Source of the DNA: an uncultured Tateyamaria sp. | Lineage (GTDB): Bacteria > Pseudomonadota > Alphaproteobacteria > Rhodobacterales > Rhodobacteraceae | DNA length: 64,000 bases | Assembly (NCBI RefSeq): GCF_947494755.1 | Contig: NZ_CANLVZ010000012.1 | Span: 1 to 64,000, forward strand | Direction: 5' to 3' | Part shown: one piece after another, positions 7,302-34,134 of the stretch | Layout of the letters: every line of letters begins with the position of its first letter | How positions within the stretch are numbered: the stretch's first letter is position 1 | Position numbers and translations under genes: made by a program | Notes under the pieces: generated by a model | Seen by the model: the letters and a program-made list of their open reading frames with translations, nothing else | The model's database searches: none | Told to the model about the DNA's origin: nothing

Positions 7302-7307
7302 CCTAAT

Positions 7308-8051: not shown

Positions 8052-8070
8052 TCTGACGTAAGGCTTTCGG

Positions 8071-8096
8071 CCGCACCCGTTCCTGGATGGGTGCGG
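8071..8096 (+). terminator. Intercistronic stem-loop between two curlin genes
   Basis: CCGCACCC (8071-8078) and GGGTGCGG (8089-8096) form a perfect 8-bp stem with a 10-base loop. No T-run follows, so it is more likely a partial attenuator or a 3'-end stabiliser for the upstream curlin message than a full terminator. Confidence 0.5.
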
Positions 8097-8123
8097 ACAT
8101 TATGTCTGATGGCGAGGTTTGTT

Positions 8124-8744: not shown

Positions 8745-8895
8745 TGGCATTCCTAGTTTAACGCGAAATGAGCGTTGTTGTGATGCAACATTCAGGGACT
8801 TTGCCGCAATTCCGGGCATTGGATGAGCGAAAAATTGCGCATTTGCGCTAGTGTACCAAAAGCCGTTGCGAAATGTGGCAGAATGGAAACCGGAA

Positions 8896-9216: not shown

Positions 9217-9288
9217 TCGCCATAAAAAGAACAACATATTCTATTAACAGGCAGCGGCTATAAAAAGCTGCGGAGAATTGGCGAGCAT

Positions 9289-14787: not shown

Positions 14788-16295
14788 GCGGTTGCATCCT
14801 CTTTGGTGGTGTAGCGACGCTGGCGCAGCTCCATCCAGATGGAATACCCGATTGAAACGACCACGATTACGATCAGCAACCAGTTCAGCCAGCCGGTAAA
14901 GAAATAGGCCATCTGCCCCACGGTCGCGTTGGCAATCATCGCTCCTTGCATAAAGTTCGCCTCTGCGATGGGTCCAAGGATCAGGCCAAGCACCAGCGGC
15001 GCGGCAGAGAACCCGAACCGTTCCAAAAAGAACATCGCCAAGCCCAAAGCCATCATGACATAGACGTCACCCATGGAATGCTGCACCGAATAGCTGCCAA
15101 AGACGGCAAGCCCCAAAACGACGGCGGCCATGACGGCGGGGGGCACGCGGGCCACATTGGCGGCCCAGCCCGCAATCAACAGGCCGAACACACACATCAA
15201 AATCTGCCCGATCAGCATCGAATTGATAAAGGGCCAAACCACCTGCGGATATTGCGTGAACAGGGTTGGGCCGGGAAAAATACCGTGGATCAGCAGCCCG
15301 CCCAGCAAAACGGCAGCTGTTGGTGATCCGGGGATCGACAGCGTCAGCAAGGGCACCAGCGACGGTCCGACCATCGCATTGTTCGCACTTTCTGCCGCGA
15401 TCACACCCTCGGGGTGGCCGGTGCCAAACTTCGCGCTTTCGGGGCTGATCTTCTTGGACTGATCATAGGCCACGAGCCCTGCAATCTGCCCGCCGACTCC
15501 CGGGATCAGTCCGATGATCGAACCGATGGCCGTGCCAATAGACAGGGCGCGCTTGCGGGCAAATACTTCGCGAAAGGCGGCCCCGATAGGGTGGCGTTTC
15601 ACGCTGATGATCTCGGCGTCGGTCCCTTTGCGCCCTTTTGCGAACATCGTGATCACTTGTGGGATGGCAAACAAGCCGATCAGCGCGGGGATGACGTTGA
15701 TGCCGCCGCTGACCGACGAGTGAAAGATAAACCGCTGCGCCCCCATGATGTCGTCAAACCCGATGGTGGCCAGCCACAGACCAATGCACCCCGACAGCAA
15801 GCCTTTCACAACCGAGCTGGAATCGAGCGTGCCAATGACCGTCACCCCCAGAATGGCGAGCCAAAACAGCTCTGACGGGCCAAAGGCAAGCGCCCATTTG
15901 GCCAGGACAGGGGTCAGAAAGATCAACAGGAAAACGCCAAAGAGGCCACCAATGGCGGATGCGATGAACGACAATTGCAGCGCCTTCGCGCCTTGCCCCT
16001 TCTGCGCCATCGTGTGCCCGTCCAGCGTGGTGGCGATGTTGGCGGGCGCGCCCGGAATCTTGAGCAGAATGGCACTGACCGCCCCGCCTGCAACCGTGGA
16101 GGTGTAGGCGGCCCCCAACAGGATCAGCCCCTGCTGCGGCTCGAGTTTGAAGGTAAACGGGATCATCAGCGCCACTGTCATCGTGGGCGACAGCCCCGGC
16201 GTGGCCCCAAGGATCAGCCCCCCGATTGTCCCAAGCAGCAACAGGCCGAAGTTAATCGGCGTAAAGACATCGCCCATGTAGAACAGGAAGTCCAA
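14784..16295 (-). CDS. tctA: TctA-type large membrane subunit of the transporter
   Basis: The 503-residue polytopic protein shows the TctA signature near the N-terminus (LGATPGLSPTMTVALMIPFTF) and a second copy-like segment IIGLIPGVGGQIAGLVAYDQ, plus SIPGSPTAAVLLGGLLIHG. These mark the two repeat halves of the family. It is the channel-forming subunit driven by an ion gradient. The start is a TTG at 16295 backed by a GGGAGG nine bases upstream. It is the first gene of the leftward tct-sau operon and is divergent from the LacI-type regulator. Confidence 0.88.
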   Translation of the reverse strand: MDFLFYMGDVFTPINFGLLLLGTIGGLILGATPGLSPTMTVALMIPFTFKLEPQQGLILLGAAYTSTVAGGAVSAILLKIPGAPANIATTLDGHTMAQKGQGAKALQLSFIASAIGGLFGVFLLIFLTPVLAKWALAFGPSELFWLAILGVTVIGTLDSSSVVKGLLSGCIGLWLATIGFDDIMGAQRFIFHSSVSGGINVIPALIGLFAIPQVITMFAKGRKGTDAEIISVKRHPIGAAFREVFARKRALSIGTAIGSIIGLIPGVGGQIAGLVAYDQSKKISPESAKFGTGHPEGVIAAESANNAMVGPSLVPLLTLSIPGSPTAAVLLGGLLIHGIFPGPTLFTQYPQVVWPFINSMLIGQILMCVFGLLIAGWAANVARVPPAVMAAVVLGLAVFGSYSVQHSMGDVYVMMALGLAMFFLERFGFSAAPLVLGLILGPIAEANFMQGAMIANATVGQMAYFFTGWLNWLLIVIVVVSIGYSIWMELRQRRYTTKEDATA

Positions 16296-16337
16296 GTGCC
16301 AAAGCCTCCCAACTTGAGCATTGACTGTTCAAGGTAA

Positions 16338-16376
16338 GTCATGAAAATAGTTTTGCAAATGTTTTCATAAAATGAC
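16338..16376. promoter_or_regulatory. Candidate LacI-type operator in the divergent intergenic region
   Basis: In the 96-bp gap between tctA and the regulator, nested inverted repeats occur: GTCAT/ATGAC (16338-16342, 16372-16376), ATGAAAA/TTTTCAT (16341-16347, 16362-16368) and a central TTTGCAAA (16352-16359). The centres differ by about one base. A TTGACT (16321-16326) may be the -35 box of the rightward promoter. Position and symmetry fit control of both transcripts by the adjacent regulator. Confidence 0.6.
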
Positions 16377-16391
16377 TAAATCACACCTTAA

Positions 16392-17468
16392 GTGACAGAT
16401 AAAATTAATAAAAAAGCGGATATAGTGAGTGTGGCAAAGGCTGCGCGCGTCTCTGCGTCGACCGTCTCGCGCTACTTCAATCATCCCGAACTTCTCAAGC
16501 CCGCGACGCGCAGCCGGATCGACAAGGCGGTGCGCAAAACCGGTTACATCCGCAATCGTGCGGCCCAGACGATCCACGGCATCCGCAGCGGCACCATTGG
16601 CGTGCTGGTGCCCACACTCGACCACGCTATCTTTGCCGAGGTCGTGCAGGCATTCTCTGATGAGGTGGCCGAGCAGGGGTTCACCATCCTGCTTGCCTCT
16701 CATGGGTACGATCCGCAACGCGAATATGCGATCCTGCGCAAAATGCTGGAACATCGGGTGGATGGCATTGTTCTGACCGGGCTCGACCATGATGAAGCTG
16801 TGTTCCAGTTGATCGATGCTCAGAATATTCCAACGGTCTTGATGTGGAATTATGCCCAGACAGCGCGGTACCCGGCGATTGGAACCGACAACTTGCTGGC
16901 CGGGCAGTTGATCGCGGAACATGTGCTCAGCCTTGGCCACCGCGACATCGCTTGCATGTTGCCGCCCGTGGCTGGAAACGACCGGGCCGCCGCGCGCTAT
17001 GATGCCGTCATGCAAACTCTGCAGGCCGCCGGTGTGTCCGTGCGGCCGGAATGGCAGCTGACGACCGTCTACAGCGTTGCCGCAGCCAAACGCGATACAT
17101 TGGCGTTGCTGGCCAGCGCCGCACGACCCACGGCCTTGATCTGCGGGAACGACGTCTTGGCCACGGGCGCGATTTACGGCGCGACTGCCGCGGGTCTTTC
17201 GGTGCCCGACGACATGTCCATCACGGGCATCGGCGATTTCAAAGGATCCGCCGATATCGAACCGCCCCTGACAACGGTGCGGATCCCGGCCAAGCGGATC
17301 GGTCGCGAAGCGGGCAGGGCGTTGTCGTCGACCATTGTTCAGTCGACCTCGACATCCGTGGGGGTCCACTGCAAACCCGCGCTGATCATTCGATCATCAA
17401 GCCGAAGCGTGAATAACGCAGGTGAGGACCTCCCCACCCACACGCGCGTGACGGCTCAGAGGACGTGA
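16392..17468 (+). CDS. LacI-family transcriptional regulator
   Basis: The 358-residue protein has a LacI helix-turn-helix at residues 14-60 (SVAKAARVSASTVSRYFNHP) and the hinge region (IRNRAAQTIHG), then a periplasmic-binding-like effector domain (IGVLVPTLDHAIFAEVVQAF, DGIVLTGLDHD, CGNDVLATGAIYGA). It is divergent from tctA-sauT and probably represses that operon until an effector such as the imported acid or a breakdown product appears. The start is a GTG with no strong ribosome binding site. It is followed one base later by the Tm-1-like gene, so the two are probably co-transcribed. Confidence 0.88.
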   Translation: MTDKINKKADIVSVAKAARVSASTVSRYFNHPELLKPATRSRIDKAVRKTGYIRNRAAQTIHGIRSGTIGVLVPTLDHAIFAEVVQAFSDEVAEQGFTILLASHGYDPQREYAILRKMLEHRVDGIVLTGLDHDEAVFQLIDAQNIPTVLMWNYAQTARYPAIGTDNLLAGQLIAEHVLSLGHRDIACMLPPVAGNDRAAARYDAVMQTLQAAGVSVRPEWQLTTVYSVAAAKRDTLALLASAARPTALICGNDVLATGAIYGATAAGLSVPDDMSITGIGDFKGSADIEPPLTTVRIPAKRIGREAGRALSSTIVQSTSTSVGVHCKPALIIRSSSRSVNNAGEDLPTHTRVTAQRT

Positions 17469-17469
17469 A

Positions 17470-18705
17470 ATGACGAAAACCATCCTGGTCATTGGCACCT
17501 ATGATACCAAGGACGACGAGCTTGGCTACCTCTGCGATTGCATTCGCGGGCAGGGAGGCGAGGTGATCTCGATGGATGTGAGTGTGCTGGGTGATCCGTC
17601 ACGCCCGACAGACATTTCCAAACACATGGTCGCGCAAGCGGCAGGGGCGTCGATTGCCGAGGCCATAGACAGCGGAGATGAAAACCATGCTATGCAGATC
17701 ATGGCGCGTGGCGCCGGGGCCTTGGCGACCAAGCTTTATGGTGAGGGCAGGATTGATGGCATGCTCGCCCTTGGGGGCACGATGGGCACTGACCTCGCGC
17801 TGGATTGCGCGCAGGCGCTGCCGGTTGGCGTGCCGAAATATGTGGTTTCCACGGTCGCTTTTTCTCCGCTGATCCCGGCGGACCGGCTGAGCCCGGACAT
17901 TCAGATGATCCTCTGGGCCGGTGGGCTTTATGGGCTGAACGCGGTCTGCAAATCATCCCTGTCCCAAGCGGCGGGAGCGGTGTTGGGCGCGGCCAAAGCA
18001 GTGGAGACGCCGGTTACCAAGCGGCCAGTGATCGGCATGACGAGCCTTGGGTCCTCGTGCCTCAAATACATGACATGGCTGCGCGATCCGCTGGAAGAAC
18101 GCGGTTTCGAGGTCGCTGTGTTTCATGCGACCGGCATGGGGGGCATGGCCTTTGAGGCGCTTGCGCGCCAAGGCTATTTTGCCGCCGTGATGGATTTTGC
18201 ATTGCCCGAGCTTGGGAACCTGATGGTGGGGTCGGTCGTCAATGCGGGGGCCGATCGCCTGACCCATGCAGGCGCGCGCGGCATCCCGCAGATCGTGTCC
18301 CCGGGATGCGCCGACCTGATTGACTTTGCGGGCTGGCAGGACATCCCCGACGCCTACGCCGACCGCCCGTTTCATGCGCACAACCGCCTGATCAAGTCTG
18401 CGGGCCTGTCCGCGAATGAACGGCGGGCGCTGGTGCGCGATATCGCGGCGCGCCTGAAGCGGGCAAAAGGACCAGTGCATGTTCTGATGCCGACCCACGG
18501 CGTCGAGGAATGGGACCGTGCGGGTCAGCCAGCCTATGACCCGGACGGTCTGGCCGCGATGGCGGACGAGATGGGCAAAGCAATCGAACCCCCGGCACAG
18601 CTGACCATGGTTGAGTGCCACATCAACGATCAAGCGTTTGCAGACGCGGCCCTTGCGGTGCTTGATGGCTGGCTTGCGGACGGGACGGTGACGACACAAG
18701 CGTGA
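17470..18705 (+). CDS. Tm-1-like ATP-binding (UPF0261) protein
   Basis: The 411-residue product matches the bacterial UPF0261 family, related to the N-terminal half of the tomato Tm-1 resistance protein. The start KTILVIGTYDTKDDELGYL and the middle MLALGGTMGTDLALD are typical, as are FHATGMGGMAFEAL and IVSPGCADLIDF. Members bind ATP; their reaction is not established. In many genomes this gene sits next to one encoding a TIM-barrel (PEP hydrolase-like) partner. None is present here, where the next 1.9 kb is decayed DNA. Co-transcription with the LacI regulator suggests a link to the tct-sau pathway. Confidence 0.82.
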   Translation: MTKTILVIGTYDTKDDELGYLCDCIRGQGGEVISMDVSVLGDPSRPTDISKHMVAQAAGASIAEAIDSGDENHAMQIMARGAGALATKLYGEGRIDGMLALGGTMGTDLALDCAQALPVGVPKYVVSTVAFSPLIPADRLSPDIQMILWAGGLYGLNAVCKSSLSQAAGAVLGAAKAVETPVTKRPVIGMTSLGSSCLKYMTWLRDPLEERGFEVAVFHATGMGGMAFEALARQGYFAAVMDFALPELGNLMVGSVVNAGADRLTHAGARGIPQIVSPGCADLIDFAGWQDIPDAYADRPFHAHNRLIKSAGLSANERRALVRDIAARLKRAKGPVHVLMPTHGVEEWDRAGQPAYDPDGLAAMADEMGKAIEPPAQLTMVECHINDQAFADAALAVLDGWLADGTVTTQA

Positions 18706-18730
18706 TCCGCTTTCTCTTATCACCGCCTTC

Positions 18731-18765
18731 GCGCCACATATGAAACCCGGAAACGCATGTGGCGC
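18731..18765 (+). terminator. Stem-loop after the UPF0261 gene
   Basis: GCGCCACAT (18731-18739) pairs perfectly with ATGTGGCGC (18757-18765), followed by only TTT. The 9-bp G/C-rich stem 25 bp after the stop codon is a plausible terminator, though its 17-base loop and short T-run are not ideal. Confidence 0.5.
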
Positions 18766-18822
18766 TTTCGGCTCTGTCGCTGGTCGTCACCCGATCATAT
18801 GACTGTCATGCAGATCGATCCG

Positions 18823-19560
18823 TTAAAGCGGATGCATCTCCGTGCCCGCGAACTTGCGGTTCGAATGGTTGTAGAGCGAGCGCCAGTAGGGCTGGATCAC
18901 CACCCCCTCATCCTGCATGATCTGCTGGATCTTCGCCATGATCTCGCGCCGTGCATCGGCATCCGAAATACCCATGCCCTGATCCACAAGCGCGTCGAAT
19001 TCGGCGTTGTTGAGACCAGACGCGGTCCACGCCGCATCCGATTTGTAGGCCAGCTGCATCATCCGAACCCCAAGCGGGCGCGGGCCCCTTTCGGTGGCCG
19101 ACCACGGATAGCCCGACCAGTTGTTCCAGAAGGTGGCCCCGGGCAGGATCTTGCACCGCACGCGGATGCCCGCATCGCGCAACTGGGCCGCCATTCGGTG
19201 TCGATCGAGATCAGTTCGAACTCGGTATCGGCATGACCGGCGGCGTCGATGATCTCCTTTGCCGCTGCCAGGTCGAAGACGGGCGCGGGCATTTCGGCAT
19301 ATTCGGGATGGACCGTGTTGACGTGATGGCTTTCGCGCACCGTGCCCAGATCGCTGATCGCCAGTTCGAGTACCTTTTTGTTCTCAAAGGCATCTGCAGC
19401 GCGCGGCGCACATCAGCGTTGTCATGGGACGCTGCTGGTTGAACCGCACGGCGATGGTGTTGGCGGTGACCACGGAGGTCTGTGCGCAACCAAGCCCGTC
19501 AACGACCTCGACATAATCCGCATCCGTCCGGCAGGTCAGGTCGATCAGCGCAGCACTCAT
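18823..19560 (-). pseudogene. Decayed peptide ABC transporter substrate-binding protein (C-terminal part)
   Basis: Translations in all three leftward frames join into the C-terminal third of a DppA/OppA-type binding protein. The pieces are DLTCRTDADYVEVVDG..., then NADVRRALQM, then VHPEYAEMPAPVFDLAAAKEIIDAAGH, and finally WNNWSGYPWSATERGPRPLG...MQDEGVVIQPYW. At least three frameshifts separate them, so no functional product is possible. Its upstream end abuts the aminotransferase remnant within a single reading frame near 19560, showing a deletion that fused the two. Confidence 0.8.
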
Positions 19561-19561
19561 G

Positions 19562-19945
19562 GTGCCCGACCCGTGATAGGCCGCCTCGCGCGCGATGATG
19601 CGTTTCTTGTCCGTCTTGCCGCGCGCGTTCTGAAAGTGCCAGACGATTTTGGCCGCCGTATCCACCGCCTCGGACCCGGCTGTGCCGAACAGGACGTGGT
19701 TGATCCCATGAGGGAGCTGCTGTGCCAGTCGCGCGGCAAGCTCTTCGGCGGGGCTGTGTGCGACCCAGAAAGCTGTGATAGTAGCCGAGCGTATTCATCT
19801 GCGCCGCGGCCCGCTTTGCGATCCGCGCATTCGTCAGGCCGAGCGGGCAGCTCGACAAGGCAGACGCCGCGTCGATATATTTCTTGGCCTCCACATCTGT
19901 CACCCGGATACCATCCGCACTGAACATCCGGTGTGGCGATGTCTG
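19562..19945 (-). pseudogene. Decayed class III aminotransferase (N-terminal part)
   Basis: One frame gives GIRVTDVEAKKYIDAASALSS...AAAQMNTLGYYHSF, the N-terminal region of omega-amino-acid/pyruvate-type aminotransferases. After a frameshift near 19760 another frame continues HSPAEELAARLAQQLPHGIN, FGTAGSEAVDTAAKIVW and AREAAYHG, which are family-typical. The sequence then runs directly into the binding-protein remnant. The PLP-lysine half of the enzyme is missing, so this is a dead fragment. Confidence 0.78.
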
Positions 19946-19979
19946 GTCAGCGCCGAACAGATCCGGTTCGTGGGGGACG

Positions 19980-20610
19980 CGGATTTCGTACAGCTCTGGC
20001 TTTTTGCCAAGCTGCCGACCTTCGAGGCGGCGCATCGCAACATCCGTGTCTCGCCGCATATGCAGGTTGGCATGAACGCGGCTCCGGATACGGATTATGA
20101 TTGCGGCATCATCTGGGGGCGGGGGGATTGGCAGAATTGGCAATACACGCCGTTCCTGACCAATCGGGTGCTCCAGTCGCCCGGCCGGGGTTCTTTGATC
20201 ATCTCGACCGCGCGCCCAAACTGGATGATATCGACGACAGCCAGCTGATCCACGACCAAACCCGGTTCTGGTGGACGGCTTTGCGCAAAGCCGCCGGGGG
20301 TCCGGGGGTCGATGCAGACCCGGGGCGGACCTACAATCAAATCCATCTCTGCCTTGAGGCGGCGGCGCGCGGTGAGGGGGTGACCATCGGCCGCGAGGTC
20401 ACGACGCGCGACTACCTGCAAGGCGGTCGGCTGGTGCGCCCGTTCCTACCGACGCTGCCTCTACATGATAGCCATTTCCTGATCCGGCCACGCCACGCGC
20501 CACTGTCCGAAGCGACGGAGGCGGTCATGGACTGGCTGCAGGAAGAAGCGAACGCACACGAGACGTGGTACAGTTTGATATCAAACGCGCCGTCATCGCC
20601 GAAGGTTTGA
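19980..20610 (+). pseudogene. Decayed LysR-type regulator (effector domain only)
   Basis: The rightward strand encodes LPTFEAAHRNIRVS, then TDYDCGIIWGRGDWQNWQYTPFL in one frame. Past a shift near 20170 another frame continues LIHDQTRFWWTAL, YNQIHLCLEAAARGEGV and GREVTTRDYLQGGRLVRPF. This is the GcvA-type LysR effector domain. The helix-turn-helix half is absent, and the 5' end overlaps the aminotransferase remnant on the other strand. It cannot make a working regulator. Confidence 0.78.
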
Positions 20611-20902
20611 ACTCGGTTTCAGAGACGCGCCCATTGCGTGCGGTGTCGCAGCCTGCTTTGCATATGCGCACGCCTTCTCTCCTTTCACAAACCCACCCGG
20701 ACGGTCCCCTGTGTCGTGATGATCTGCGCGTCGCACGGACGGGTTCAGCTATAGTGAAGGGGCGCGATATGCAGGTCTCGGCGCTTTCTTGCAGGTTCGC
20801 ATCGCGGCGCAAGCGGCTGAAATGATGACAGACCGCACACGTTATGCTAGATTTGCAGAATTGTTAAAGTCGACTGTTTAAAGTTAATTCTGAGGTAACG
20901 TT
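20611..20902. other. Intergenic region before the exported-protein operon
   Basis: I see no supported gene in these 292 bp. The last 60 bp become A/T-rich and lead to a good ribosome binding site (GAGG at 20892-20895), so the promoter of the next operon is probably here. Confidence 0.4.
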
Positions 20903-22642
20903 ATGCGTCTCACTGTTTTGGTGCTCAGCATGATTGTGCTGACAGCATCTACGCTATCGGTCCGAGCCGACGAGCGCCCGATCATTTTCATCCCCGGTAT
21001 CATCGGATCAAAGCTGGTCGAACAAGGCGATCCATCCAAGGTGGTGTGGGGGTCTTTGGCGTCATTGCGCAAGTCGCAGACCGCAAAGATGAACCTGCTT
21101 CCGGCGAGTGGCACACCCGTCCCACTTGAGCCGGGCGATATACTGCGGGACTTCAATCTGGCCTTTGGCGCGTTCGAGGTGGGGATCTATTCGCATCTCA
21201 TTAATTTCCTCACGGGGACCAGACAGTCCGCCAAGGACATGGCGTTCTCGCCCGAGCTGACGGAAAACCAGAATTTCTTTGTCTTTGCCTATGACTGGCG
21301 GCGCAGCGTCTTTGCCAATGGAGTGCGCTTTGCGCATTTCATCGAAGAGAAGGTGCCGAACGGAGAATTCGATATCGTGGCGCACAGTATGGGCGGGCTT
21401 GTGACGCGCGCGATGCTGTCATCAAAACGCCCCGGGGATCGATGCGTGGAAACAAACGCCGACTACCCTGCGGATATTGGTGGGGCAGATTTGACAGCAG
21501 TCTGCACTGCCGCCTATTTCGATCTGACCGCGGACGCGTGGGACACGAAACCGGATGTGTCCAGCCGATTGCACAGCTTTGTCGAAGTGGGCGTGCCGCA
21601 TTTTGGCTCGGTGGCCACTGTGTCGACGATGCGCGATGGGTCGGGAAGCAATCTGGCCAACCGCTTGCTTGGCGGGCTGACGCATCTGCAGGACGTCTCG
21701 ACATCCATGGTCGGCGTTTTTGAACTGACACCCACATATGAAAACTGTTGCTGGATCAAAAGCACCGATGACGACAGCTTTCGGCAGCTCAACCTGTTCC
21801 GCGACAGTTTCATCCGCGATCACTGGATGGGTAAGATCGTGCCGATCACAACGTCACCTTGTGGCTTTTCCAACTGCGACCAACGGGCCGCGATCATCGA
21901 GATCGGCTTGGCCAACCGCGCGCTGCTGGACGAGATCATGGCCGACAAGCTGCCCGATGGCGTGCAATCAAACCACGTCCTGCGGGGGACCAAGACCAGC
22001 GACACGCCTTCGCGATACTATGTCGAACGTCCGTTTCGCAACGCCCAGGACAGCGTCGTCGTGGACGGGTCCTTGGACGGTGATGGAACGGTGCATGAAT
22101 TCAGCGCAAAGGCCCCCGGCGCGTCCGGACAGGCCGGTGTGAACGAAGGCCTTGTAGCATTCACCAAACATCAGGCGCTGTTTCGCGACAGCGCGACCAA
22201 GCGCTATCTGGGGCGATTTGTGATTGACGAGGTTGCGCCGCCGCCCGCTTGGTCGTCAGCTGAGAGGGATGACCTTCAAATCGCCGGTGCCACGATCGAC
22301 GCCACCAGCTTTGAGGCTGTACCAAGCATCGTCGAGCCGGGGCAGAGCCTGCCATTGGCCTTTATTGTGGACAGGGTGAACAGCGACGGGAACGCCTTTG
22401 ATCAGGTGGCCTTGGAGGGCCTGCGCTATGGTCTTCAGTATACCCGTCTTGATGACGGTGCTGACCAAGCGGCCCAGGACCTGAGCGATACGTTGTCGCT
22501 GGCCGAGGAAACGGATTTGCGCGCGGTCTTCCGCGGGTCTCCCGTTAGCCCCGAGGTCGAGGGCATTTATCTTTACGAAGTTCTGATGGACGGCGTTTCG
22601 CTTGGAGAAACGACTGTCTACGTTCTGTCATCGGAAGGTTGA
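20903..22642 (+). CDS. Exported LCAT-like alpha/beta-hydrolase (lipase or acyltransferase)
   Basis: The 579-residue protein has a signal peptide (VLTASTLSVRADE), then PIIFIPGIIGSKL, the LCAT/lipase-type entry strand. FVFAYDWRRS follows, and the nucleophile elbow VAHSMGG with its serine lies near residue 163. A later VDGSLDGDGTV segment probably gives the catalytic Asp; the histidine may be in FTKHQAL. Extra regions of about 200 residues after the core have no family I know. LCAT-fold enzymes cleave or transfer acyl chains from phospholipids or other esters. It is first of a tightly spaced operon with a protease gene four bases downstream. Confidence 0.72.
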   Translation: MRLTVLVLSMIVLTASTLSVRADERPIIFIPGIIGSKLVEQGDPSKVVWGSLASLRKSQTAKMNLLPASGTPVPLEPGDILRDFNLAFGAFEVGIYSHLINFLTGTRQSAKDMAFSPELTENQNFFVFAYDWRRSVFANGVRFAHFIEEKVPNGEFDIVAHSMGGLVTRAMLSSKRPGDRCVETNADYPADIGGADLTAVCTAAYFDLTADAWDTKPDVSSRLHSFVEVGVPHFGSVATVSTMRDGSGSNLANRLLGGLTHLQDVSTSMVGVFELTPTYENCCWIKSTDDDSFRQLNLFRDSFIRDHWMGKIVPITTSPCGFSNCDQRAAIIEIGLANRALLDEIMADKLPDGVQSNHVLRGTKTSDTPSRYYVERPFRNAQDSVVVDGSLDGDGTVHEFSAKAPGASGQAGVNEGLVAFTKHQALFRDSATKRYLGRFVIDEVAPPPAWSSAERDDLQIAGATIDATSFEAVPSIVEPGQSLPLAFIVDRVNSDGNAFDQVALEGLRYGLQYTRLDDGADQAAQDLSDTLSLAEETDLRAVFRGSPVSPEVEGIYLYEVLMDGVSLGETTVYVLSSEG

Positions 22643-22646
22643 TTTC

Positions 22647-24398
22647 ATGCATCGCTTCTTTTCATTCATTCCCGCCATTCTTCTTGCATCCGTCGCGCTG
22701 GCCGACCCGCCCACGCTCGATAAAAACGCGGTTTTCGTGGCCAATGTCACCGGCACGCCGGAAGACACCGATCTGAGGGATATTGATCGCGTCGGAATAG
22801 CGTTTGCGATTGGCAACGGCGTACTTTTGACGGCTGGGCATGTGCCCGGCGACCTGCACGCTTTTCAGGACCGCAACAATCCAACCCGGTCGGCGGATGG
22901 GCAATTGGCGAATGTGCCAAGTTTTGTGCGCGAAATCGCCGTCAGCTACACGGCCTTGGATACAAATGGCGATCTGACGGCCCGAACGCTCAAGCAAGAG
23001 GCCGGAGGGTTCAAGACGCGCAACAGTCCCTTCGGGCTGGATGTCGTGGATGTGGCCCGGATTGATATCACCAAGAGCAGGATAGCGCTTGGAACCCTCC
23101 CGCTGAATGCGTGCGGGCTGAGTGCGGACGAAGACTACTTCGTGCATACGTTCGATTTCCTGAATGGCGACGAGGCAAAGCGCGACGCGCGCAAACCGCA
23201 GGTGTTCAAGGTCAACCTGCAGCAATATCCGGACTTCGTTGATCTCAATCTGTCGACGCTGGTCGTGCACAGCGAAAGCCGCACGACCAATGGGCGGCAA
23301 CTTCAGCAAGGCGACAGCGGCGCGCCGGTGGTCAATGCGAAGGGCGAGGTTGTGGGGCTCTTGTCGGCCACGATCAAATCGACCGAGCAGAATGTCATCT
23401 TCCTGACGCCGGTTGCGTCCTTCCTTGAACTTGTGCCGACAGATGCGCGAGTCGAATGCACGACACGGGTGCTGCGCGATGAGTTTGACGCGGTTGTCAG
23501 CCGGTTGGAGGCGCTTGAAGGTTACGTCTTTGGACAGATCAACGGCCTGCCTGTTCCGGTCGAAGAGACGTTTATCGATCTGGTTCAAACGCGGATCAAC
23601 ACAGCGATCGAACCGGTTGATGGCAAATCAGAAGTCGCCGTGCGTTCGGTACACAGCAAAGACCTGTTCGAGGCCGAGCAGATCACAAGCGAGGTTGTCA
23701 TTCAGTTGAAAGAACAGATGGATCAGGACGATTTTGTTCCCATCGGCGACGACATTCGCGCGCTCAAGGCATCCCTTGCCAGTTTGGACTGGGGGCTGAA
23801 TGTCGGTGCGGTTCTCAATGGTGAAAAGAAGTTTCAGCTTAAAATTGACTATACTTATGAACGCGCATTGCTGGCCCGCCCCTACCGCGAATACCTGCAA
23901 ATATGCGCCTTCCCGCTTGTCGGCCCGGATTCCAGCGACGAAAGCTACATCAAGGGTCTGCTCAGCCGCGATATCATAAATGGTTCAAAGGCTTGCGCGG
24001 ATGCAGAACACAGCGAGGCCGAAGATATCACGCGGGTGAACAACGGGCGGTTTACCCGTCTGGTGGACCATCGCGAGCTGAACAACATCATCGAGACGTT
24101 GGAAGACGGGGAAAACTGGTACGGTGAGTTTTTTGTGGTTATCATAGACCCGCAGAAAAAGAGCAAAAACCCGCGCGACTACATCATGGCAAGCCTGCTT
24201 GTCGATGTGTTTGAAGGCGAAACGAATGCGCGCATGGAAGACAGACCCTACGCCGTGAAACGGTGTGGCAAGATAAAAAGACTGCGGGATGCACCGCTGG
24301 TCGCTGTGAGCCATCTCGCGGTAGAGCAACCAGATCTCGACGACGGGTTCAAGCTCAATGAAGAGGACATCGAGAAGTTAACGGAGAACTGCGTGTGA
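22647..24398 (+). CDS. Exported trypsin-like serine protease with long C-terminal extension
   Basis: The 583-residue product starts at the ATG at 22647 (GGAAGG upstream) with a signal peptide ending SVALA. The chymotrypsin-type triad is visible: LLTAGHV (His), DVVDVARID (Asp) and QQGDSGAPV (Ser), all within the first 235 residues. The remaining 350 residues match nothing I know; they contain charged, partly helical segments. It begins four bases after the lipase-like gene, and its stop overlaps the next start (GTGA at 24395-24398), so expression is coupled on both sides. The target could be its operon partners or an external substrate. Confidence 0.78.
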   Translation: MHRFFSFIPAILLASVALADPPTLDKNAVFVANVTGTPEDTDLRDIDRVGIAFAIGNGVLLTAGHVPGDLHAFQDRNNPTRSADGQLANVPSFVREIAVSYTALDTNGDLTARTLKQEAGGFKTRNSPFGLDVVDVARIDITKSRIALGTLPLNACGLSADEDYFVHTFDFLNGDEAKRDARKPQVFKVNLQQYPDFVDLNLSTLVVHSESRTTNGRQLQQGDSGAPVVNAKGEVVGLLSATIKSTEQNVIFLTPVASFLELVPTDARVECTTRVLRDEFDAVVSRLEALEGYVFGQINGLPVPVEETFIDLVQTRINTAIEPVDGKSEVAVRSVHSKDLFEAEQITSEVVIQLKEQMDQDDFVPIGDDIRALKASLASLDWGLNVGAVLNGEKKFQLKIDYTYERALLARPYREYLQICAFPLVGPDSSDESYIKGLLSRDIINGSKACADAEHSEAEDITRVNNGRFTRLVDHRELNNIIETLEDGENWYGEFFVVIIDPQKKSKNPRDYIMASLLVDVFEGETNARMEDRPYAVKRCGKIKRLRDAPLVAVSHLAVEQPDLDDGFKLNEEDIEKLTENCV

Positions 24399-25924
24399 TA
24401 AGGCGTCTATTCACTGAAACGGCAACGATCCTGACGGCCTGCCTGCTGTTGGGCACGCAGCAGGCTGCTGCAGAAGAGCCGACACCCGAGGAAAAGAGCT
24501 ATGTGGATGGTATTTTCGATCTCGAGAACCTTGGACCAATCGAGATTGACGAGCATCGCAACAAGCTTGTTCTGAGCGTCGGTGCTGAAATTCTGGAAGT
24601 GTCCACCTTCCCGATTGAGACGGTCAGCCGGAAGAAGATCGATTTCGTCCCAGAAATCATCCGCGCGTCCAAGGATTTCGTGTTTGCCCTTGGATATGTC
24701 GAACAGCAGGTGACCCTGTTGGATGGCAAAACCAAGAACGCACGTGGCCAGATCTTTCGCGGTCTGGGTGTCTCGCCCAAAGGTCCATCGGAGGATATCG
24801 AGTATCAGTTTCTGACCTTTGACAAGACGATTGGCAACGGATCCAAGAACCGCTTGGAACAGGCCACAATCCTCGAGATTGACGACGGCAATCGAAGCTT
24901 CATCTCGAGCGTGACATCCAACGAAATCAATGTGATCGAGTTTGGGAAACTGTCGGAGTCGGAACGTGTTCGTCATCCGTTTCTGATCACGCGCTGTGGC
25001 ACGCCGAACCAGCTGTCCATCGGTGATCCATCGGGCGAAGAGAAATTCTATGTGGTGTCGATCAGCGGCAGCAAAACGATTGAAATCGGGTCGCTGGACG
25101 TTTTGGAAACCGGACGTGGGGAAGCGGAATGCGTGTCCATCTCGCAGTCCGGATCCGACGACAAGACCCCGGGCAGCGTTGGTATGCCCTCGCTCAACCA
25201 CGTTCTGACGCGTAACAAGGAGACGGGCGATTTCTCGTTGGTCACCTTCGATTTCGAGACGCGCGCGCTGGTGGCCACGCCGATCATTTCCTTCTTTGGC
25301 GAGATTTTCTTGGAGGTCTACCAATCGGTGAATGCGAAGGAAAACATCAGCTTTCCGACCATCGAAAACGGGTCACGTTTTGGCATTCTCACCGGAAGCG
25401 ATGATGGCGGCGTCATCCTTGTGTCGGGCGTGGGCCAGAAGCGTTTGCACCGGTTCCGCCTTGTCGATCGCCAATTCGAATATCTCGGGGCCTGGAACTT
25501 TGATCAGCCCATCCGGACCGTGAAGCTGAGCAGGAACGGGCGCTTGGCGGTCGTGGTGACCGGCGACGGCTTTCCCAGCTATATCGAGGAGGTCACAGTG
25601 ATCCGCGACCTCGAAGAGATTCCGGCGAACTGGAAAATGACCGACAAACGCTATTCCATCCGCGCCATCCAAGAAGAACTCAATGAACAGGGCGAGCGTG
25701 TTGCGGTTGATGGGCGGCTGGGGCCGATTACCCGCACGGCAATCAGCAAAGTGATCGAAGGCGACGTTGCCAAAGGGCCCAAACCAGCCGGAGCAACAAA
25801 GGCGGCGGCCCCGCTGAAGACCCGAAAAATCTCGGTGAGACCCAAGGCAACCATCTCTAGACCGGTTGCCAAATCGGTGTCCCGGGCCATTGAAGGTGCG
25901 TTCCCCATGGGCGTGTTCCGATGA
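24395..25924 (+). CDS. Exported protein, propeller-like body with C-terminal peptidoglycan-binding-like domain
   Basis: This 509-residue protein starts at a GTG overlapping the protease stop. It has a signal peptide ending QQAAAEE. The long middle looks beta-rich, with repeated short strands such as ILVSGVGQKRLHRFRLVDRQ and FDQPIRTVKLSRNGRLAVVVTGDG. This could be a beta-propeller, but I cannot confirm it. Near residue 428 the stretch IRAIQEELNEQGERVAVDG, LGPITRTAI matches the PG_binding_1 pattern (helix, then DGxxGPxTxxAI). The C-terminus is basic and Ala/Lys-rich. It may anchor or recruit the operon's enzymes at the cell wall, which is inference. Confidence 0.65.
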   Translation: MIRRLFTETATILTACLLLGTQQAAAEEPTPEEKSYVDGIFDLENLGPIEIDEHRNKLVLSVGAEILEVSTFPIETVSRKKIDFVPEIIRASKDFVFALGYVEQQVTLLDGKTKNARGQIFRGLGVSPKGPSEDIEYQFLTFDKTIGNGSKNRLEQATILEIDDGNRSFISSVTSNEINVIEFGKLSESERVRHPFLITRCGTPNQLSIGDPSGEEKFYVVSISGSKTIEIGSLDVLETGRGEAECVSISQSGSDDKTPGSVGMPSLNHVLTRNKETGDFSLVTFDFETRALVATPIISFFGEIFLEVYQSVNAKENISFPTIENGSRFGILTGSDDGGVILVSGVGQKRLHRFRLVDRQFEYLGAWNFDQPIRTVKLSRNGRLAVVVTGDGFPSYIEEVTVIRDLEEIPANWKMTDKRYSIRAIQEELNEQGERVAVDGRLGPITRTAISKVIEGDVAKGPKPAGATKAAAPLKTRKISVRPKATISRPVAKSVSRAIEGAFPMGVFR

Positions 25925-25945
25925 GCGAAAGTGAGTAGGTAAGGC

Positions 25946-26122
25946 ATGAAAACATTAGCTGGACTAGTTTTGTTGCTGGCAACATCCGATGTCAGTCTTC
26001 CCCATTGCGCCGCTGACCGTGTGGATCAGAGGCAGTATTGCTGCAGCGCAACCCTTGGCGGGCAATGCTGCTCGTCCTCCATCGGGACGAATGGTCTGCC
26101 GGGTGGGTGCAACTGCCGATGA
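25946..26122 (+). CDS. Small exported cysteine-rich protein (58 residues)
   Basis: An ATG 22 bases after the preceding stop opens a 58-codon frame. It starts with a hydrophobic signal peptide (KTLAGLVLLLA) and ends with a compact tail holding Cys at 21, 32, 33, 41, 42, 55 and 57, in the order C...CC...CC...CxC with several Gly. An AGG six bases upstream gives a weak ribosome binding site. Signal peptide plus paired cysteines is unlikely by chance, and the spacing puts it in the same operon as the hydrolase and protease. I know no matching family; a disulfide-stabilised peptide or metal-binding protein are both possible. Confidence 0.55.
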   Translation: MKTLAGLVLLLATSDVSLPHCAADRVDQRQYCCSATLGGQCCSSSIGTNGLPGGCNCR

Positions 26123-26304
26123 GGGATGTGCGCCCGGTCCTGAGCCCGTCACTACAGCGCTGATCACCAACACCTCTTGACCACGACAGACCCGCCCCGC
26201 CATGTCGGAGCGGTGGGCCGATTTGAGGGTTGTTCGCCCGCGCCCACCGACTGAGCGTTTCGCCGGGCGCTTGTCGGAACTGGGCACGCGGTTGGAGACA
26301 TGAT

Positions 26305-26895
26305 TTGGACAAGCCCAGACGGTTCGACGTTCTCAGCGAACGCAGCTACCGCCTGTTCGTCATTGGCTACGGCATCTCATACACACTGTACTGGATTACC
26401 CTGCTCGCTGTCGGCTGGTGGATGTGGGAGACGACGGGGTCTGCGGCATGGGTCGGCTTTGTGTTCTTTTGTGACCTCTTTCCAGTTGTTCTTGTCACGC
26501 CCTGGGCATCGGCCTTGGCAGATCGCGGCGACCGCTTCCAGTTCCTGAAATCCGTTTTGTGGATACAAGTGGGCACCGGGCTTGCACCGGCGAGTGTCGC
26601 GTGGATGGGTCTGTTGACGCCGGGCTTGGGCGATGGATCGCGATGGCTGTTCTGTCTTGGCCTTGGCAGCAGCTACATCTGGACGGGCAACAATATCGTC
26701 CTGCAAAATCCGACGCCTGAACATCTGCGCAGCCGGGTGCTTGGCAACAGCTTTATGCTGACACGAGCCATTGGTGCCATTTCTGTCGTGCTGACCGGGT
26801 TGGTGATTGAGCAAGTTGGGTTCGTGTCCGGCATGTTTGCGGTCGCCGTTGCCGTGGCCTGCCTGGTGCCATCTGCCTTACGGGTCAAAAGATAG
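26305..26895 (+). pseudogene. MFS transporter gene with an internal deletion
   Basis: The frame encodes 196 residues, about half an MFS_3/EntS-type exporter. It starts with the N-terminal helices (RSYRLFVIGYGISYTLYWI, FPVVLVTPWASALADRGDR, the MFS loop 2-3 signature). After about 110 residues it jumps to a segment that belongs near the C-terminus (GNNIVLQNPTPEHLRSRVLGN, FMLTRAIGAISVVLTG). Roughly five to six helices in the middle are missing while the frame stays open. The likely start is a TTG with GGAGA six bases upstream. It is most likely a non-functional deletion derivative. Confidence 0.6.
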
Positions 26896-26944
26896 GGCCG
26901 GGAGAGCAGACAGCAGACCTATCGCGCAACGCACTCAGGTCCGC

Positions 26945-28138
26945 CTACTGCTGAACCCTGTAGACGAAATTGAGCGCCCTGCTTTGCCCGCCCGGCGGCG
27001 GTGGGAAGGGTGCGCCTCTGCGCACATGCTCTCGGGCGGCCCGTTCGACTTCGGATGATCCGCTGCCATCGATGATGTCCACAGTCGCCAGCGTCCCGTC
27101 AGGGTTGATCCGAAACAACACGCGCGCCCAACCGCGCACGGACACGGCAACCGGCGGCACGCGGTTCAATTGCATCAGGACCCGGCCCGCGTAATTCGTC
27201 ACATTCGAATTGCCCGGACCAAGGGACCCGCCAGAGCGCGACCCGCTGGATTGCGACCGTGCGCGTCGTCCCGCAAACAGGTTTGTGCCGTCTCGTTTAA
27301 AGGCTGTCAGGGGTGACTCGATCAGGTTGGTCGGGGGCGCGGGCGGAGGCGGACTGGATTGGCCTGCGCTTCCGTCGACCGCTCCGAACCGCTGCGAAGA
27401 CGGAGGCGTCGGGCGGAGTTGCGGCCGCAGAGAGGTCGTTGTGCCGGCCTCTGACGTCTCGCTCTCGGGGGGCTGATTTTGGACCTCGACGTTAGCGGGC
27501 GGGACTTCCGGAGGCTGGGCCTCGGGCGGCAGCGCGGCGATCACGTCGGGCAGGGGCGCAGCAGCAAGCGGTGCGGTGGGCGGGGTCACAACCGGTTCTG
27601 TGACCGCGGGAGGGGCAAAGGGCGCGGCGACAGGTGGTAAGGCCGAGGGGTCTGCGTCCGGACTGCCCTCCGCGACCTCTTGTGTCTCCGTTTCGACCGG
27701 CGGTGTAGGGGCAGGCGCCGGAGCGGTGGTTTGCGGAGCGTCCGAAGAGGCACCCCCCTCTTGCCCATCTGTGGTCTCCGGCGATACCGGCTCGTTCACG
27801 GTCGGCTGCACCGCATCAGCAGGGCCGCTATCTGGCGCAAACGTCGCTTGCGGGTTGGACGACGCAACAAGCGCCTCGCTGGTGGGGGCTTCGGCTTCGG
27901 TCGGTTCTGGCGGGGTTTCCTCAGGCGGTTCGGGAGGCTCGGCGGGGGTGGGTTCGACCGGTGTTATGCTGGTTTCGGCAAGGTCGGCAAAATCATCGCC
28001 CACCTCGACTCTTTCGACACCCTGATCCGCCGTTTCGGGCGACGCCACGTCGGCCCCGGTCAGCGAAAGGCCGACCACGTGGATGATCAAGGACAGGATC
28101 AGCGCGCCAACGCCAATGGCAGTCGATCTGCGGATCAT
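26945..28138 (-). CDS. tonB: TonB-like energy transducer
   Basis: The 397-residue protein has an N-terminal membrane anchor (residues 8-28). A very long Pro/Glu/Ala-rich periplasmic spacer runs to about residue 300, and a TonB C-terminal domain ends the protein (YAGRVLMQLNRVPPVAVSVRGWARVLFRI, SSEVERAAREHVRRGAPFPPPP). It passes energy from the ExbBD motor to outer-membrane receptors. Its start overlaps the preceding exbD stop (ATGA at 28135-28138). The spacer is longer than in E. coli TonB (239 residues total). No TonB-dependent receptor gene lies in the window. Confidence 0.87.
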   Translation of the reverse strand: MIRRSTAIGVGALILSLIIHVVGLSLTGADVASPETADQGVERVEVGDDFADLAETSITPVEPTPAEPPEPPEETPPEPTEAEAPTSEALVASSNPQATFAPDSGPADAVQPTVNEPVSPETTDGQEGGASSDAPQTTAPAPAPTPPVETETQEVAEGSPDADPSALPPVAAPFAPPAVTEPVVTPPTAPLAAAPLPDVIAALPPEAQPPEVPPANVEVQNQPPESETSEAGTTTSLRPQLRPTPPSSQRFGAVDGSAGQSSPPPPAPPTNLIESPLTAFKRDGTNLFAGRRARSQSSGSRSGGSLGPGNSNVTNYAGRVLMQLNRVPPVAVSVRGWARVLFRINPDGTLATVDIIDGSGSSEVERAAREHVRRGAPFPPPPGGQSRALNFVYRVQQ

Positions 28139-33163: not shown

Positions 33164-33187
33164 AGCGTTTCGACATTAACCTGAGGC
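33163..33187 (+). repeat. IS630 left terminal inverted repeat
   Basis: AAGCGTTTC...AACCTGAGGC at the left end matches the complement of the right end at 18 of 25 positions. It overlaps the transposase stop codon (TAA at 33176-33178). Confidence 0.85.
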
Positions 33188-34134
33188 ATATCCGGGAGCC
33201 TTGAAGTAGTTCCAGCACTCTTCTGGATCGTAGAGATCGCAGATTGATCCGATAGCGTCGAAGACCTCGGTGAAAGTTCTTGCCCCGATCCGTCGCAGGT
33301 GGGCTTTGAGCTTCAAGTATGCCAGCTCGATGGGGTTCAGATCAGGCGAGTACGGTGGCAGGTAGAGGAACCAGCAGCCGTGGTCGCGCAAGGCCTGCGC
33401 CGCGTCCTTGTTCCGATGCGTGGCCAGGTTGTCGAGGATGACGACGGTGCCGGGCGCGATCTTGGGGACAAGCACCTCGCGGAAGTAGGCGGCAAATGCC
33501 GGGCCGTCAATTGCGCCCTTGATGACCCATGGCGCGATCAGGGCATCTTGCGTCAGACCCGCGATCAGGGTCTGCGTTCCCCAACTTCCGAAGGGCGCGT
33601 CCATGGTCAGGCGTTCACCCCGTTTCGCCCTGCCTCGCAGGCGGTTCAGGTTCGACTTCACTGCGGTTTCGTCAATAAGGACAACACGGTTTGGTATCTC
33701 AGAGATGGCGGGCAGGCGATGCTTGAACCAATCGCCGCGCTGCTGCCTTACCTTGGCGCGACGACGTTCGCTCGCGACCAGCGACTTTTTTTGTACGTGA
33801 ACTCGAGACGGGACAGTAGGTTGGCGATGGAAGAGTGATGCACTTGCACGCCCTCTGCCTCGGCCAGAGCGTCGCGTAGCTCGAAGAGGGTGATGTCAGG
33901 GTCCAGTGCGATCAACTCCTCAAGGAAAGCCTGATGCGGTGCCAGCTTGCCTTTGCCGCGCGGCGGTCCCTGGGGTGCGGGTTCCGCGTGGCCCTTGGTT
34001 CTTACCTGGCGCGCCCATCGCGCACCTGTCGCCGGTGACAGCCTCAGACGCAACGCCGCCGCGCGCCCGCTTAACCCTTCTTCAATATACCTCTGAATCC
34101 GCGTCTAGAGTGCCAAGGGTAACGGTGCTGACAT
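33176..34134 (-). pseudogene. IS630 transposase, frameshift-organised and interrupted by an amber codon
   Basis: From the ATG at 34134 the frame reads MSAPLPLAL, then an in-frame TAG (34105-34107), then TRIQRYIEEGLSGRAAAL, the usual N-terminal helix-turn-helix. The first frame ends just past YKKSRWSR. A run of seven A followed by G (33786-33792 on the other strand) lets a -1 shift continue as YKKKSLVASERRRAKV, then VVLIDETAV, the first catalytic Asp. The rest has VVILDNLATHRN and PPYSPDLNPIELAY with the second Asp and Glu. The A-run is a standard programmed frameshift site for this family. The amber codon at position 10 is the real lesion; a TTG at 34053 could restart only after losing the first helix. 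Confidence 0.82.
33786..33792 (-). promoter_or_regulatory. Programmed -1 frameshift site (A7G) in the transposase
   Basis: Seven A followed by G on the coding (minus) strand, read AAA-AAA-AGT in the first frame. Slipping back one base gives AAA-AAA-AAG-TCG and opens the catalytic frame. The protein sequence across the site matches IS630 transposases only after the shift. Confidence 0.75.

Follow-up and report, generated by a model that had tools for sequence, protein, structure and literature searches.

A rare operon of four export-like proteins in Rhodobacteraceae: a candidate protease-controlled envelope-hydrolase module

What purpose could be served by a hydrolase, a protease, a propeller and a tiny cysteine-rich protein that are encoded side by side and all look exported? 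Four such genes (g1 to g4) stand in one row at positions 20903-26122 of the window, the 64,000-nucleotide stretch of an uncultured Tateyamaria sp. that we analysed. The open reading frames are present as described in an earlier note, whose picture of a tightly spaced, exported-looking set held up: the spacing is +4 bases between g1 and g2, -4 between g2 and g3 and +21 between g3 and g4. The start of g2 was taken as the ATG at 22647 (the mechanical reading frame begins at TTG 22602), and g3 starts with GTG. A weak match to a sigma-70-like promoter lies at 20825..20853 (forward strand), 50 bases ahead of g1, and is at chance level, with one match in 20700-26400 versus 2.1 expected in shuffles, and a promoter and terminator scan around the operon found nothing above shuffles.

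All four proteins begin with a strongly hydrophobic 9-mer (scores of 3.29, 2.74, 2.54 and 2.93 for g1 to g4). Among the nine loci described below, the score exceeded 2.0 for g1 in 3 of 3, for g2 in 9 of 9, for g3 in 8 of 9 (1.99 in the ninth) and for g4 in 9 of 9. This measure is coarse, being passed also by 17 of the 38 gene calls of at least 200 aa in the window, operon genes and membrane proteins included, and it is from this score rather than from a signal-peptide predictor that we infer export of g1 to g4.

The earlier note had asked whether the genes occur together elsewhere, and they do: the full set was found in two more genera and the core, g2-g3-g4, in six more loci. Aliishimia ponticola and Sulfitobacter sp. 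EhC04 have the four genes in the same order, with identities to the window proteins of 35 and 39% for g1, 25 and 28% for g2, 28 and 24% for g3, and 37 and 42% for g4, respectively. The six further loci, three in Rhodovulum and three in Paracoccus, have the core without g1. Thus, the core is present in nine loci and the four-gene order in three genera; g2 and g3 overlap in 9 of 9 loci, and the gap between g3 and g4 ranges from 12 to 51 bases. Judging from these sequences, the core is a rare but conserved set of marine and soil bacteria with a patchy distribution.

The hydrolase profile alone was rejected as an anchor because it was too promiscuous, matching 194 of 394 family genomes at E 0.001. 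When only matches above 600 bits were counted as g1 orthologues, the LCAT orthologue was found at 634-647 bits in 3 of 13 genomes tested (next best, 64.5) and in 2 of the 394 family genomes (next best, 92 bits), and it adjoined the core in all three genomes. Nine alphaproteobacterial LCAT matches outside the family had no adjoining trypsin by motif (0 of 9), a motif insensitive enough to miss the Pfam-confirmed trypsin of an R. etli plasmid; the contig of the best of these matches ends on the side where g2 would stand. We also considered and rejected a plasmid home for the full four-gene set: a tblastn search of plasmids with g1 gave relatives on five Rhizobiales plasmids, four of which were inspected. 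On two Rhizobium plasmids, an export-like hydrolase is followed directly by an export-like trypsin-like protein, and a plasmid search with g3 yielded one Paracoccus plasmid with the core and the GH19 fusion described below. A contig search with g2 returned 72 stretches, none of which was confirmed, and a scan of viral contigs with the g3 alignment found no conserved stretch.

g1 (20903..22642, forward strand) encodes an export-like, LCAT/PGAP1-like alpha/beta hydrolase of 579 aa. It resembles the LCAT/phospholipid acyltransferase-like hydrolases (PF02450) in passing the Pfam cut-off (28.4 bits; cut-off, 21), as does its Sulfitobacter counterpart (31.5 bits), and in conserving S162 (HSMGG), D394 (GDGTV) and H423, which are invariant in 6 of 6 aligned sequences and which we take, from knowledge of the family, to be the Ser-Asp-His triad. 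A vicinal pair, C282-C283 (LxPxYxxCC), is likewise invariant in all six. By contrast with that family, g1 has operon-specific cysteine pairs, C181/C201 and C320/C325, which are common to the three operon hydrolases and absent from the other three aligned sequences, and a C-terminal region of about 100 residues that matched no Pfam family. Of these, C181/C201 is carried by an insert that follows the nucleophile elbow. In these alignments, the Aliishimia row begins ten codons upstream of the likely ATG. g1 is described here as a putative (phospho)lipase, lipid being its presumed substrate.

g2 (22647..24398, forward strand) encodes an export-like, trypsin-like serine protease of 583 aa. Pfam Trypsin matches residues 215-261 (31.3 bits; cut-off, 20.6), and the catalytic residues H65 and S224 are present. 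The roughly 320 residues beyond this match belong to no family; downstream of the protease part comes a coiled-coil-like stretch, followed by a conserved, cysteine-containing C-terminal region of no recognised fold (an AlphaFold model from six sequences had a pLDDT of 36). The catalytic His and Ser motifs are found in six of the nine loci (the window, Aliishimia, Sulfitobacter and the three Rhodovulum) and are missing from all three Paracoccus loci, in which g2 is, by its sequence, a pseudoprotease. It follows that proteolysis by g2 is not essential to the role of the core and that g2 cannot be a maturing protease in Paracoccus. Other exported-looking trypsins are present in the Paracoccus loci despite the dead g2.

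g3 (24395..25924, forward strand) encodes an export-like protein of 509 aa. Its AlphaFold model (pTM 0.67, pLDDT 64) gave Foldseek matches to propellers such as Sec12 and YncE (4h5i, TMt 0.63; 7seu, TMt 0.69), and on this moderate model g3 is a beta-propeller. A peptidoglycan-binding-like domain lies near the C terminus, at about residues 421-451. In the window protein, PG_binding_3 (18.0 bits; cut-off, 24.6) and PG_binding_1 (13.7 bits; cut-off, 23) are both below threshold; the earlier note's label of a wall-binding-like protein is nonetheless fair, since the Rhodovulum marinum relative clears the PG_binding_1 cut-off at 28.9 bits. A g3 profile matched 34 of the 394 family genomes, only three of them above 31.1 bits (957, 931 and 123); nearly all the remaining matches covered the peptidoglycan-binding end alone.

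g4 (25946..26122, forward strand) encodes a cysteine-rich protein of 58 aa with a hydrophobic N terminus and the motif C-x10-CC-x4-G-x2-CC-x11-GC-x-C, and it matched no Pfam family. The part from CC-x4 onwards was kept in none of 200000 shuffles of residues 21-58. The cysteine spacing is conserved, with seven cysteines in 14 of 15 sequences (the Paracoccus start was placed at the second Met). A pattern scan gave at least 118 loci; among those listed, 39 of 118 had the motif in a reading frame of at least 30 aa, of which 11 small export-like ones were kept and 28 left out, many being cysteine-rich runs or long frames. Two loci left out, L089 and L142, may be distant g4 relatives. Two further types of exported operon (B and C) have g4 relatives but neither g3 nor the protease, so g4 need not act on the protease. 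In the scans made, no curated family matched g4, the tail of g2 or the propeller part of g3, which makes each of the three a concrete new target for study.

The partner of the core is not constant. All six core loci without g1 carry an export-like peptidoglycan-binding-trypsin protein, which is fused to a GH19 part in five of the six. All five of the other core genomes have the fusion, as does the Paracoccus MC1862 plasmid; the R. strictum protein aligns at residues 253-625 only. In the three LCAT genomes the fusion was absent, and only generic trypsin similarity was seen, in the window's own genome. By sequence comparison, the LCAT orthologue and the fusion are mutually exclusive (three versus five genomes), although this split tracks lineage and may reflect just one or two swaps. 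The P. salipaludis fusion exceeds the cut-offs for Trypsin and PG_binding_1, with GH19 below threshold (17.1 bits; cut-off, 25.5), and the N-terminal part of the MC1862 fusion (about residues 24-229) shares 36-46% identity with plasmid-borne proteins annotated as GH19. A trypsin of about 306 residues stands alongside in five of the six loci (Paracoccus and two of the three Rhodovulum). Rhodovulum strictum has the core and the peptidoglycan-binding-trypsin protein only, with neither LCAT nor GH19; no second trypsin was found between that gene, which has one in-frame stop near its end, and g2. The earlier suggestion of a secreted lytic system gains weight from the fusion in five of six hydrolase-less loci; in the sixth, R. 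strictum, GH19 is missing. Between them, the nine loci vary naturally in both respects: g2 is active or a pseudoprotease, and the partner is of one kind or the other or, in one locus, neither.

The explanation that we favour, tentatively and at somewhat short of even odds, is that g1 to g4 form a single operon and belong to an extracytoplasmic module of patchy distribution, free of NTPases, in which a protease controls an envelope hydrolase and the effector is exchangeable. The R. strictum locus lowers these odds slightly. Gene conservation, co-occurrence, the alternation of partners, the catalytic residues and the propeller fold of the moderate model are seen in the data themselves; we infer export, proteolytic gating, the lipid and peptidoglycan substrates, sensing and the role of g4. 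The core would consist of g2 (trypsin or pseudo-trypsin plus tail), g3 and g4, coupled to either the LCAT-like g1 or the GH19-peptidoglycan-binding-trypsin fusion with its trypsin of about 306 residues, and all parts would be exported. g3 might park the complex on peptidoglycan, and g3 or g2 would sense an envelope event, upon which an exported trypsin would cut the effector in a gating segment; for g1, this may be the cysteine-bearing insert, specific to the operon, that follows the nucleophile elbow. The lipase or muramidase so unleashed would damage the envelope of the cell itself (programmed lysis or defence) or of neighbours (competition or predation), and g4 would have a regulatory role, most probably by inhibiting or triggering the protease. 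That the protease matures its partners, as the earlier note had proposed, is plausible in the light of published effectors that proteases activate.

Secreted nutrient-scavenging enzymes could give the same mix of proteins. Such an operon, in which a lipase, a protease and a chitinase or muramidase digest polymers or dead cells without triggered killing, has perhaps a one-in-four claim on the data, as does its corollary that g3 tethers the enzymes to the wall and that g4 plays an accessory part, in folding or as an inhibitor. Marine Rhodobacteraceae use organic matter, all parts look exported, the lipase, protease and GH19 mix suits depolymerisation, and no NTPase or other sensor family was found in the four proteins. 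However, the set is rare, with three of the 394 family genomes giving a g3 match above 31.1 bits; it is closely tied to two proteins that lack any catalytic family, as well as to a pseudoprotease in the case of Paracoccus; and the operon itself has no transporter for the products.

It is also possible, though unlikely, that the set works in the periplasm and is directed at its own cell, for immunity or programmed lysis, which would make it the extracytoplasmic equivalent of the CARD-NLR trypsin/phospholipase systems of the cytosol; that it senses phage envelope damage or serves particle release is an equally doubtful part of this idea. In its favour, the same bacterial family has two trypsin-NTPase-LCAT rows in which a hydrolase likewise stands with a trypsin, the distribution is patchy and partners are swapped. 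In Paracoccus MC1862, the module adjoins genes for a contractile tail, and lysis might be needed to release the particles that they encode, but this neighbour was seen once. In PADLOC-DB, the Rhodovulum marinum g2 matched RT-Protease (E 1.7e-11) and LmuA (E 8.2e-8), and the window g2 matched RT-Protease models only (residues 208-256, E 5e-5). These matches fall on the trypsin domain alone, the window g1 and g3 had none, and the database gave no defence match beyond this generic protease domain; nor does any of the four proteins contain an NTPase family, and no defence gene was recognised by eye among the neighbouring gene calls.

An improbable alternative is that the operon makes and matures a secreted cysteine-rich peptide: g4 would be a bacteriocin or signal that is processed by the protease g2, with g1 or the GH19 fusion in an accessory role. 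The conserved cysteine pattern and the two further operon types are in line with this, as is the presence of g4 in 9 of 9 core loci, a count partly built in by locating most loci through g4 or its pattern; but the operon has no exporter or immunity gene, no protease was seen in the gene calls beside g4 in types B and C, and the Paracoccus g2 is catalytically dead. A chance neighbourhood of unrelated exported genes, to which the presence of the operon in one of the 20 genomes from its genus might point, is refuted by the co-occurrence, with the four-gene order in three genera, the core in nine loci and the overlap of g2 and g3 in every one.

Our favoured reading, the protease-controlled module, has precedents among cytosolic systems. 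Effectors unlocked by proteases (gasdermins, nucleases and phospholipases) are known in cytosolic bacterial immunity, often alongside NTPases, and the CARD-NLR-type immune or lysis systems (Lysobacter; LypABC of Caulobacter) use a gasdermin, phospholipase or endonuclease as effector. Of the 13 next-best hydrolase regions inspected (three by Pfam, ten by motif and eye), two are trypsin-NTPase-LCAT operons from the same bacterial family that resemble these systems and, like the two Rhizobium plasmids, give a precedent for pairing a hydrolase with a trypsin-like protein: G294 has a trypsin, an NLR-like NTPase and an LCAT protein in a row and is CARD-NLR-like by layout, and G404 has a trypsin, an AAA-like protein just below cut-off and an LCAT match. 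Another such region (L250) combines a subtilase, an MBL-fold protein and an LCAT protein.

CARD-NLR systems encode a trypsin-like protease with an exchangeable lytic effector, phospholipases included (PMC13236601); the window operon likewise has a trypsin-like protease, with an exchangeable effector that is presumably lytic. Membership was rejected because the four window proteins have no NTPase: none matched an NTPase family (Pfam, E up to 5), hence no NLR-like (STAND/NACHT) ATPase was found. None matched Pfam CARD, a domain recognised by structure, for which the g2 model is of low confidence. CARD-NLR systems are cytosolic, whereas all four window proteins have export-like N termini by the 9-mer score, and the operon adds a peptidoglycan-binding-like propeller and a cysteine-rich mini-protein. 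The NucA-trypsin conflict systems of alphaproteobacteria (Kaur et al. 2020, PMC7159879) likewise couple trypsin-like peptidases to degradative effectors, with a proposed proteolytic cascade and lysozyme-like accessory effectors. Membership in these was also rejected, as Pfam found neither NucA nor any other nuclease family in the four proteins, nor a STAND component; the module here has a lipase or GH19 effector and other core proteins. In the Hachiman/AVAST nuclease-protease pairs (PMC12799240), a trypsin-like protease activates a gated nuclease proenzyme, an unmasking shown there and proposed here; those pairs have an MBL-type nuclease and a protease fused to phage-defence enzymes, of which the window operon has no such part.

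We searched the literature and found no description of this module. It is conceivable, at odds of about three to one against in our judgement, that it is a conflict system new in kind: NTPase-free and wholly extracytoplasmic, with a peptidoglycan-anchored propeller and (pseudo)protease hub, an exported protease cascade, interchangeable envelope-destroying enzymes and a secreted disulfide-rich mini-protein as brake. An exported version of protease-unlocked effectors, with a wall-binding, sensor-like protein and interchangeable lipase or muramidase, would mean that this logic also works in the periplasm or outside the cell, the first point of contact for phages and rivals.

The operon at 20903–26122 (forward strand) belongs to a 4.1-Mb genome in 60 contigs whose named sequence relatives are Rhodobacteraceae. 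Its four genes lie on one strand at spacings of +4, −4 and +21 bases and encode an LCAT-like hydrolase of 579 residues (g1; Pfam LCAT supported), a trypsin-like protease of 583 residues (g2; Pfam Trypsin supported), a protein of 509 residues with only sub-threshold Pfam matches to peptidoglycan-binding (PGB) families (g3) and a protein of 58 residues without a Pfam match (g4). An NCBIfam scan of these proteins gave no match above the cut-offs. The earlier note had assigned signal peptides to the products; their N termini are export-like by hydropathy score, an unspecific measure.

A check proposed in the note, a search for the same gene order in other genomes, gave a positive result: all four genes occur in order in Aliishimia ponticola and Sulfitobacter sp. 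EhC04, and the core g2–g3–g4 occurs in six more loci. A g2 search of 198 Rhodobacteraceae genomes, including the window's, found one additional genome, A. ponticola MYP11; within the genus, the operon's g2 was present in 1 of 20 genomes, the window's alone. In A. ponticola, g4 is a 59-residue Cys-rich protein read from the DNA past g3. Searching 394 family genomes with g3 gave three strong matches (the window, Aliishimia and Rhodovulum euryhalinum). Genome contigs were also scanned with a DNA pattern of the g4 motif and script-filtered, which yielded, among the matches listed, at least 11 small proteins that are credible and export-like. Inspection of longer stretches around the matches listed revealed the full order in Sulfitobacter and the core without an LCAT gene in R. 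euryhalinum, R. marinum, R. strictum, Paracoccus luteus and P. salipaludis; the ninth core locus is on a plasmid of Paracoccus sp. MC1862. In all nine loci compared, g2 and g3 overlap by 4–25 bases and g4 lies 12–51 bases past g3. Identities to the window's g1, g2, g3 and g4 are 35, 25, 28 and 37% for Aliishimia and 39, 28, 24 and 42% for Sulfitobacter.

Loci without the LCAT gene carry a different partner. Upstream of the core, R. euryhalinum and R. marinum have a GH19–PGB–trypsin fusion and, between fusion and core, a trypsin of about 306 residues. In P. salipaludis and on the plasmid of MC1862, g4 is followed first by the fusion and next by the approximately 306-residue trypsin; in P. luteus both lie at least 3.2 kb downstream, beyond a cytochrome-like gene. 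In R. strictum, the gene before g2 encodes an export-like PGB–trypsin protein that lacks GH19; a single in-frame stop falls near the end of this gene, and there is no second trypsin between it and g2. GH19 and the extra trypsin thus occur in five of the six loci without LCAT. A fusion search found the fusion in 5/5 core genomes without LCAT (in R. strictum, residues 253–625 only) and in 0/3 LCAT genomes, with generic trypsin similarity only (E 4.6e-5) in the window's genome. This search counted one TAG inside the R. euryhalinum stretch; the ORF called there runs for 636 residues with no stop. Conversely, an LCAT orthologue search of 13 genomes recovered exactly the three LCAT-core genomes (634–647 bits; best other match, 64.5). 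MC1862 was covered by its plasmid alone. The GH19 part of the fusion scores 17.1 bits against a Pfam cut-off of 25.5, and is 36–46% identical to proteins annotated as GH19. Because the LCAT and fusion states track lineage, few independent swaps may underlie the alternation. These results provide good support for a real, conserved, rare and export-like operon with a constant core and an alternating partner.

About 200 bases upstream of g1 in Sulfitobacter (fetched region L207, 6114–7301) is a lytic-transglycosylase-like SLT_2 protein with PG_binding_1. In Aliishimia (L009, 12260–15832), the gene next after g4 encodes a possible sensor, a hybrid histidine kinase that combines PAS domains and a receiver domain with two SBP_bac_3 stretches. 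On the MC1862 plasmid (L265, 18526–30176), the core and GH19–trypsin module adjoins, on the opposite strand, a cluster of contractile-tail genes (sheath, baseplate V, gp25 and baseplate J) similar to an extracellular contractile injection system; a tie to particle release would be a guess.

Acquisition of the operon by horizontal transfer is likely, if unproven. The flank at 26945–28512 matches 12 of 20 genus genomes, the window's included, with the best congener match (genome G209) at 84% identity. Similarity to G209 starts at about 26961, and window positions 15001–26960 have no counterpart in the 16 kb compared on its contig. The operon is bordered by gene pieces (18823–20610) and a short MFS frame (26230–26895). 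The former, just upstream, are by eye short solute-binding-protein, aminotransferase and LysR-like pieces; their DNA matches stretches within G000:C14:109120-114497, a region of the same genome, at 74–77% identity, which suggests decayed duplicates. The MFS-like frame directly after g4 has only 221 residues (MFS_1 23.3 bits, below cut-off) and looks truncated, being shorter than the family norm. Elsewhere in the window, two IS630-like transposase pieces were seen by eye at 33176–34053, and at 6474–10176 three to four small ORFs with what we take, by eye, to be curlin-like repeats precede a CsgG-like gene; this may be a locus for a curli-type fibre.

In g1, Ser 162, Asp 394, His 423 and a vicinal Cys pair are invariant in all six aligned sequences. 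The three operon hydrolases share two additional Cys pairs (window C181/C201, in an insert, and C320/C325), which are missing from the two Rhizobium proteins and that of genome G439 in this alignment. The His and Ser motifs of g2 are intact in six of nine loci and lost in all three Paracoccus loci, which gives g2 a non-catalytic role there. An AlphaFold model of g3 from eight sequences (pLDDT 64, pTM 0.67) matches propellers in a structure search, for example Sec12 and YncE. Those two propellers are themselves seven-bladed.

The g4 spacing CC-x7-CC-x11-GC-x-C is exact in 15/15 sequences listed, by construction in pattern-found members because the spacing was in the search pattern; members found independently were those of Aliishimia and R. 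euryhalinum (earlier), MC1862 (beside g3) and genomes G229 and G127 (by profile search). Seven cysteines occur in 14 of the 15, and six in P. luteus. The g4 profile was positive in seven of 394 family genomes: three with the core, two of a second type and two of a third. The second type (Roseivivax lentus and the Prado181 bin) has g4, an exported protein of about 400 residues, then a small membrane protein (about 97 residues) and/or a solute-binding protein. It also occurs in Roseovarius and Yoonia maritima, with SBP_bac_3 confirmed for Yoonia; of the four stretches with this type (L209, 10072–12596; L211, 3479–5967; L213, 6884–9361; L133, 3280–4943), not all showed both the membrane and the solute-binding gene. 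In the third type (G229 and G127; L222, 7608–9399; L223, 7892–9626), g4 directly follows an exported protein of about 525 residues, which in L222 matched no family in a Pfam scan. Since g4 occurs in two operon types besides the core, it is not tied to the protease. ORFs in a Rhodospirillaceae region (L089, 5714–6304, reverse strand) and in Hyphomicrobium (L142, 164–571, reverse strand) have CC-x4-G-x2-CC-x5-C-GG-x2-P-GC-x-C, the g4 spacing plus one extra Cys; the motif may be a wider alphaproteobacterial mini-domain.

One plausible reading, to which we give somewhat less than even weight, is that the operon is a protease-controlled envelope-lytic module. In the literature searched, which covers a minority of subscription journals, no description of an exported hydrolase–protease pairing accompanied by g3 and g4 was recognised. 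Pairings of the caspase/alpha-beta-hydrolase kind, and alphaproteobacterial NucA–trypsin systems for which a proteolytic cascade is proposed, have been described by Kaur et al. 2020 (PMC7159879), and a nuclease proenzyme unmasked by a trypsin-like protease is reported in PMC12799240. Caulobacter LypABC is presented as a CARD-NLR type system in PMC13236601, which also reports phospholipase effectors in other such systems. The family's 13 next-best hydrolase regions include that of genome G294, which has a row of trypsin–AAA, NLR-like and LCAT proteins (L247, 4163–10480, reverse strand), and that of G404, with a row of trypsin, AAA-like protein (31.2 bits; cut-off, 32.6) and LCAT match (L246, 4905–10490, reverse strand); both are probably systems of CARD-NLR type in which the effector is a lipase. 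On two Rhizobium plasmids, the gene directly after that of an export-like hydrolase encodes a trypsin-like protein that is itself export-like; one of these proteins has MORN repeats. On two further plasmids, a hydrolase that has no obvious signal peptide is paired with a protein annotated as CHAT. The pairing of hydrolase and peptidase, found on plasmids and in the family rows, is therefore recurrent.
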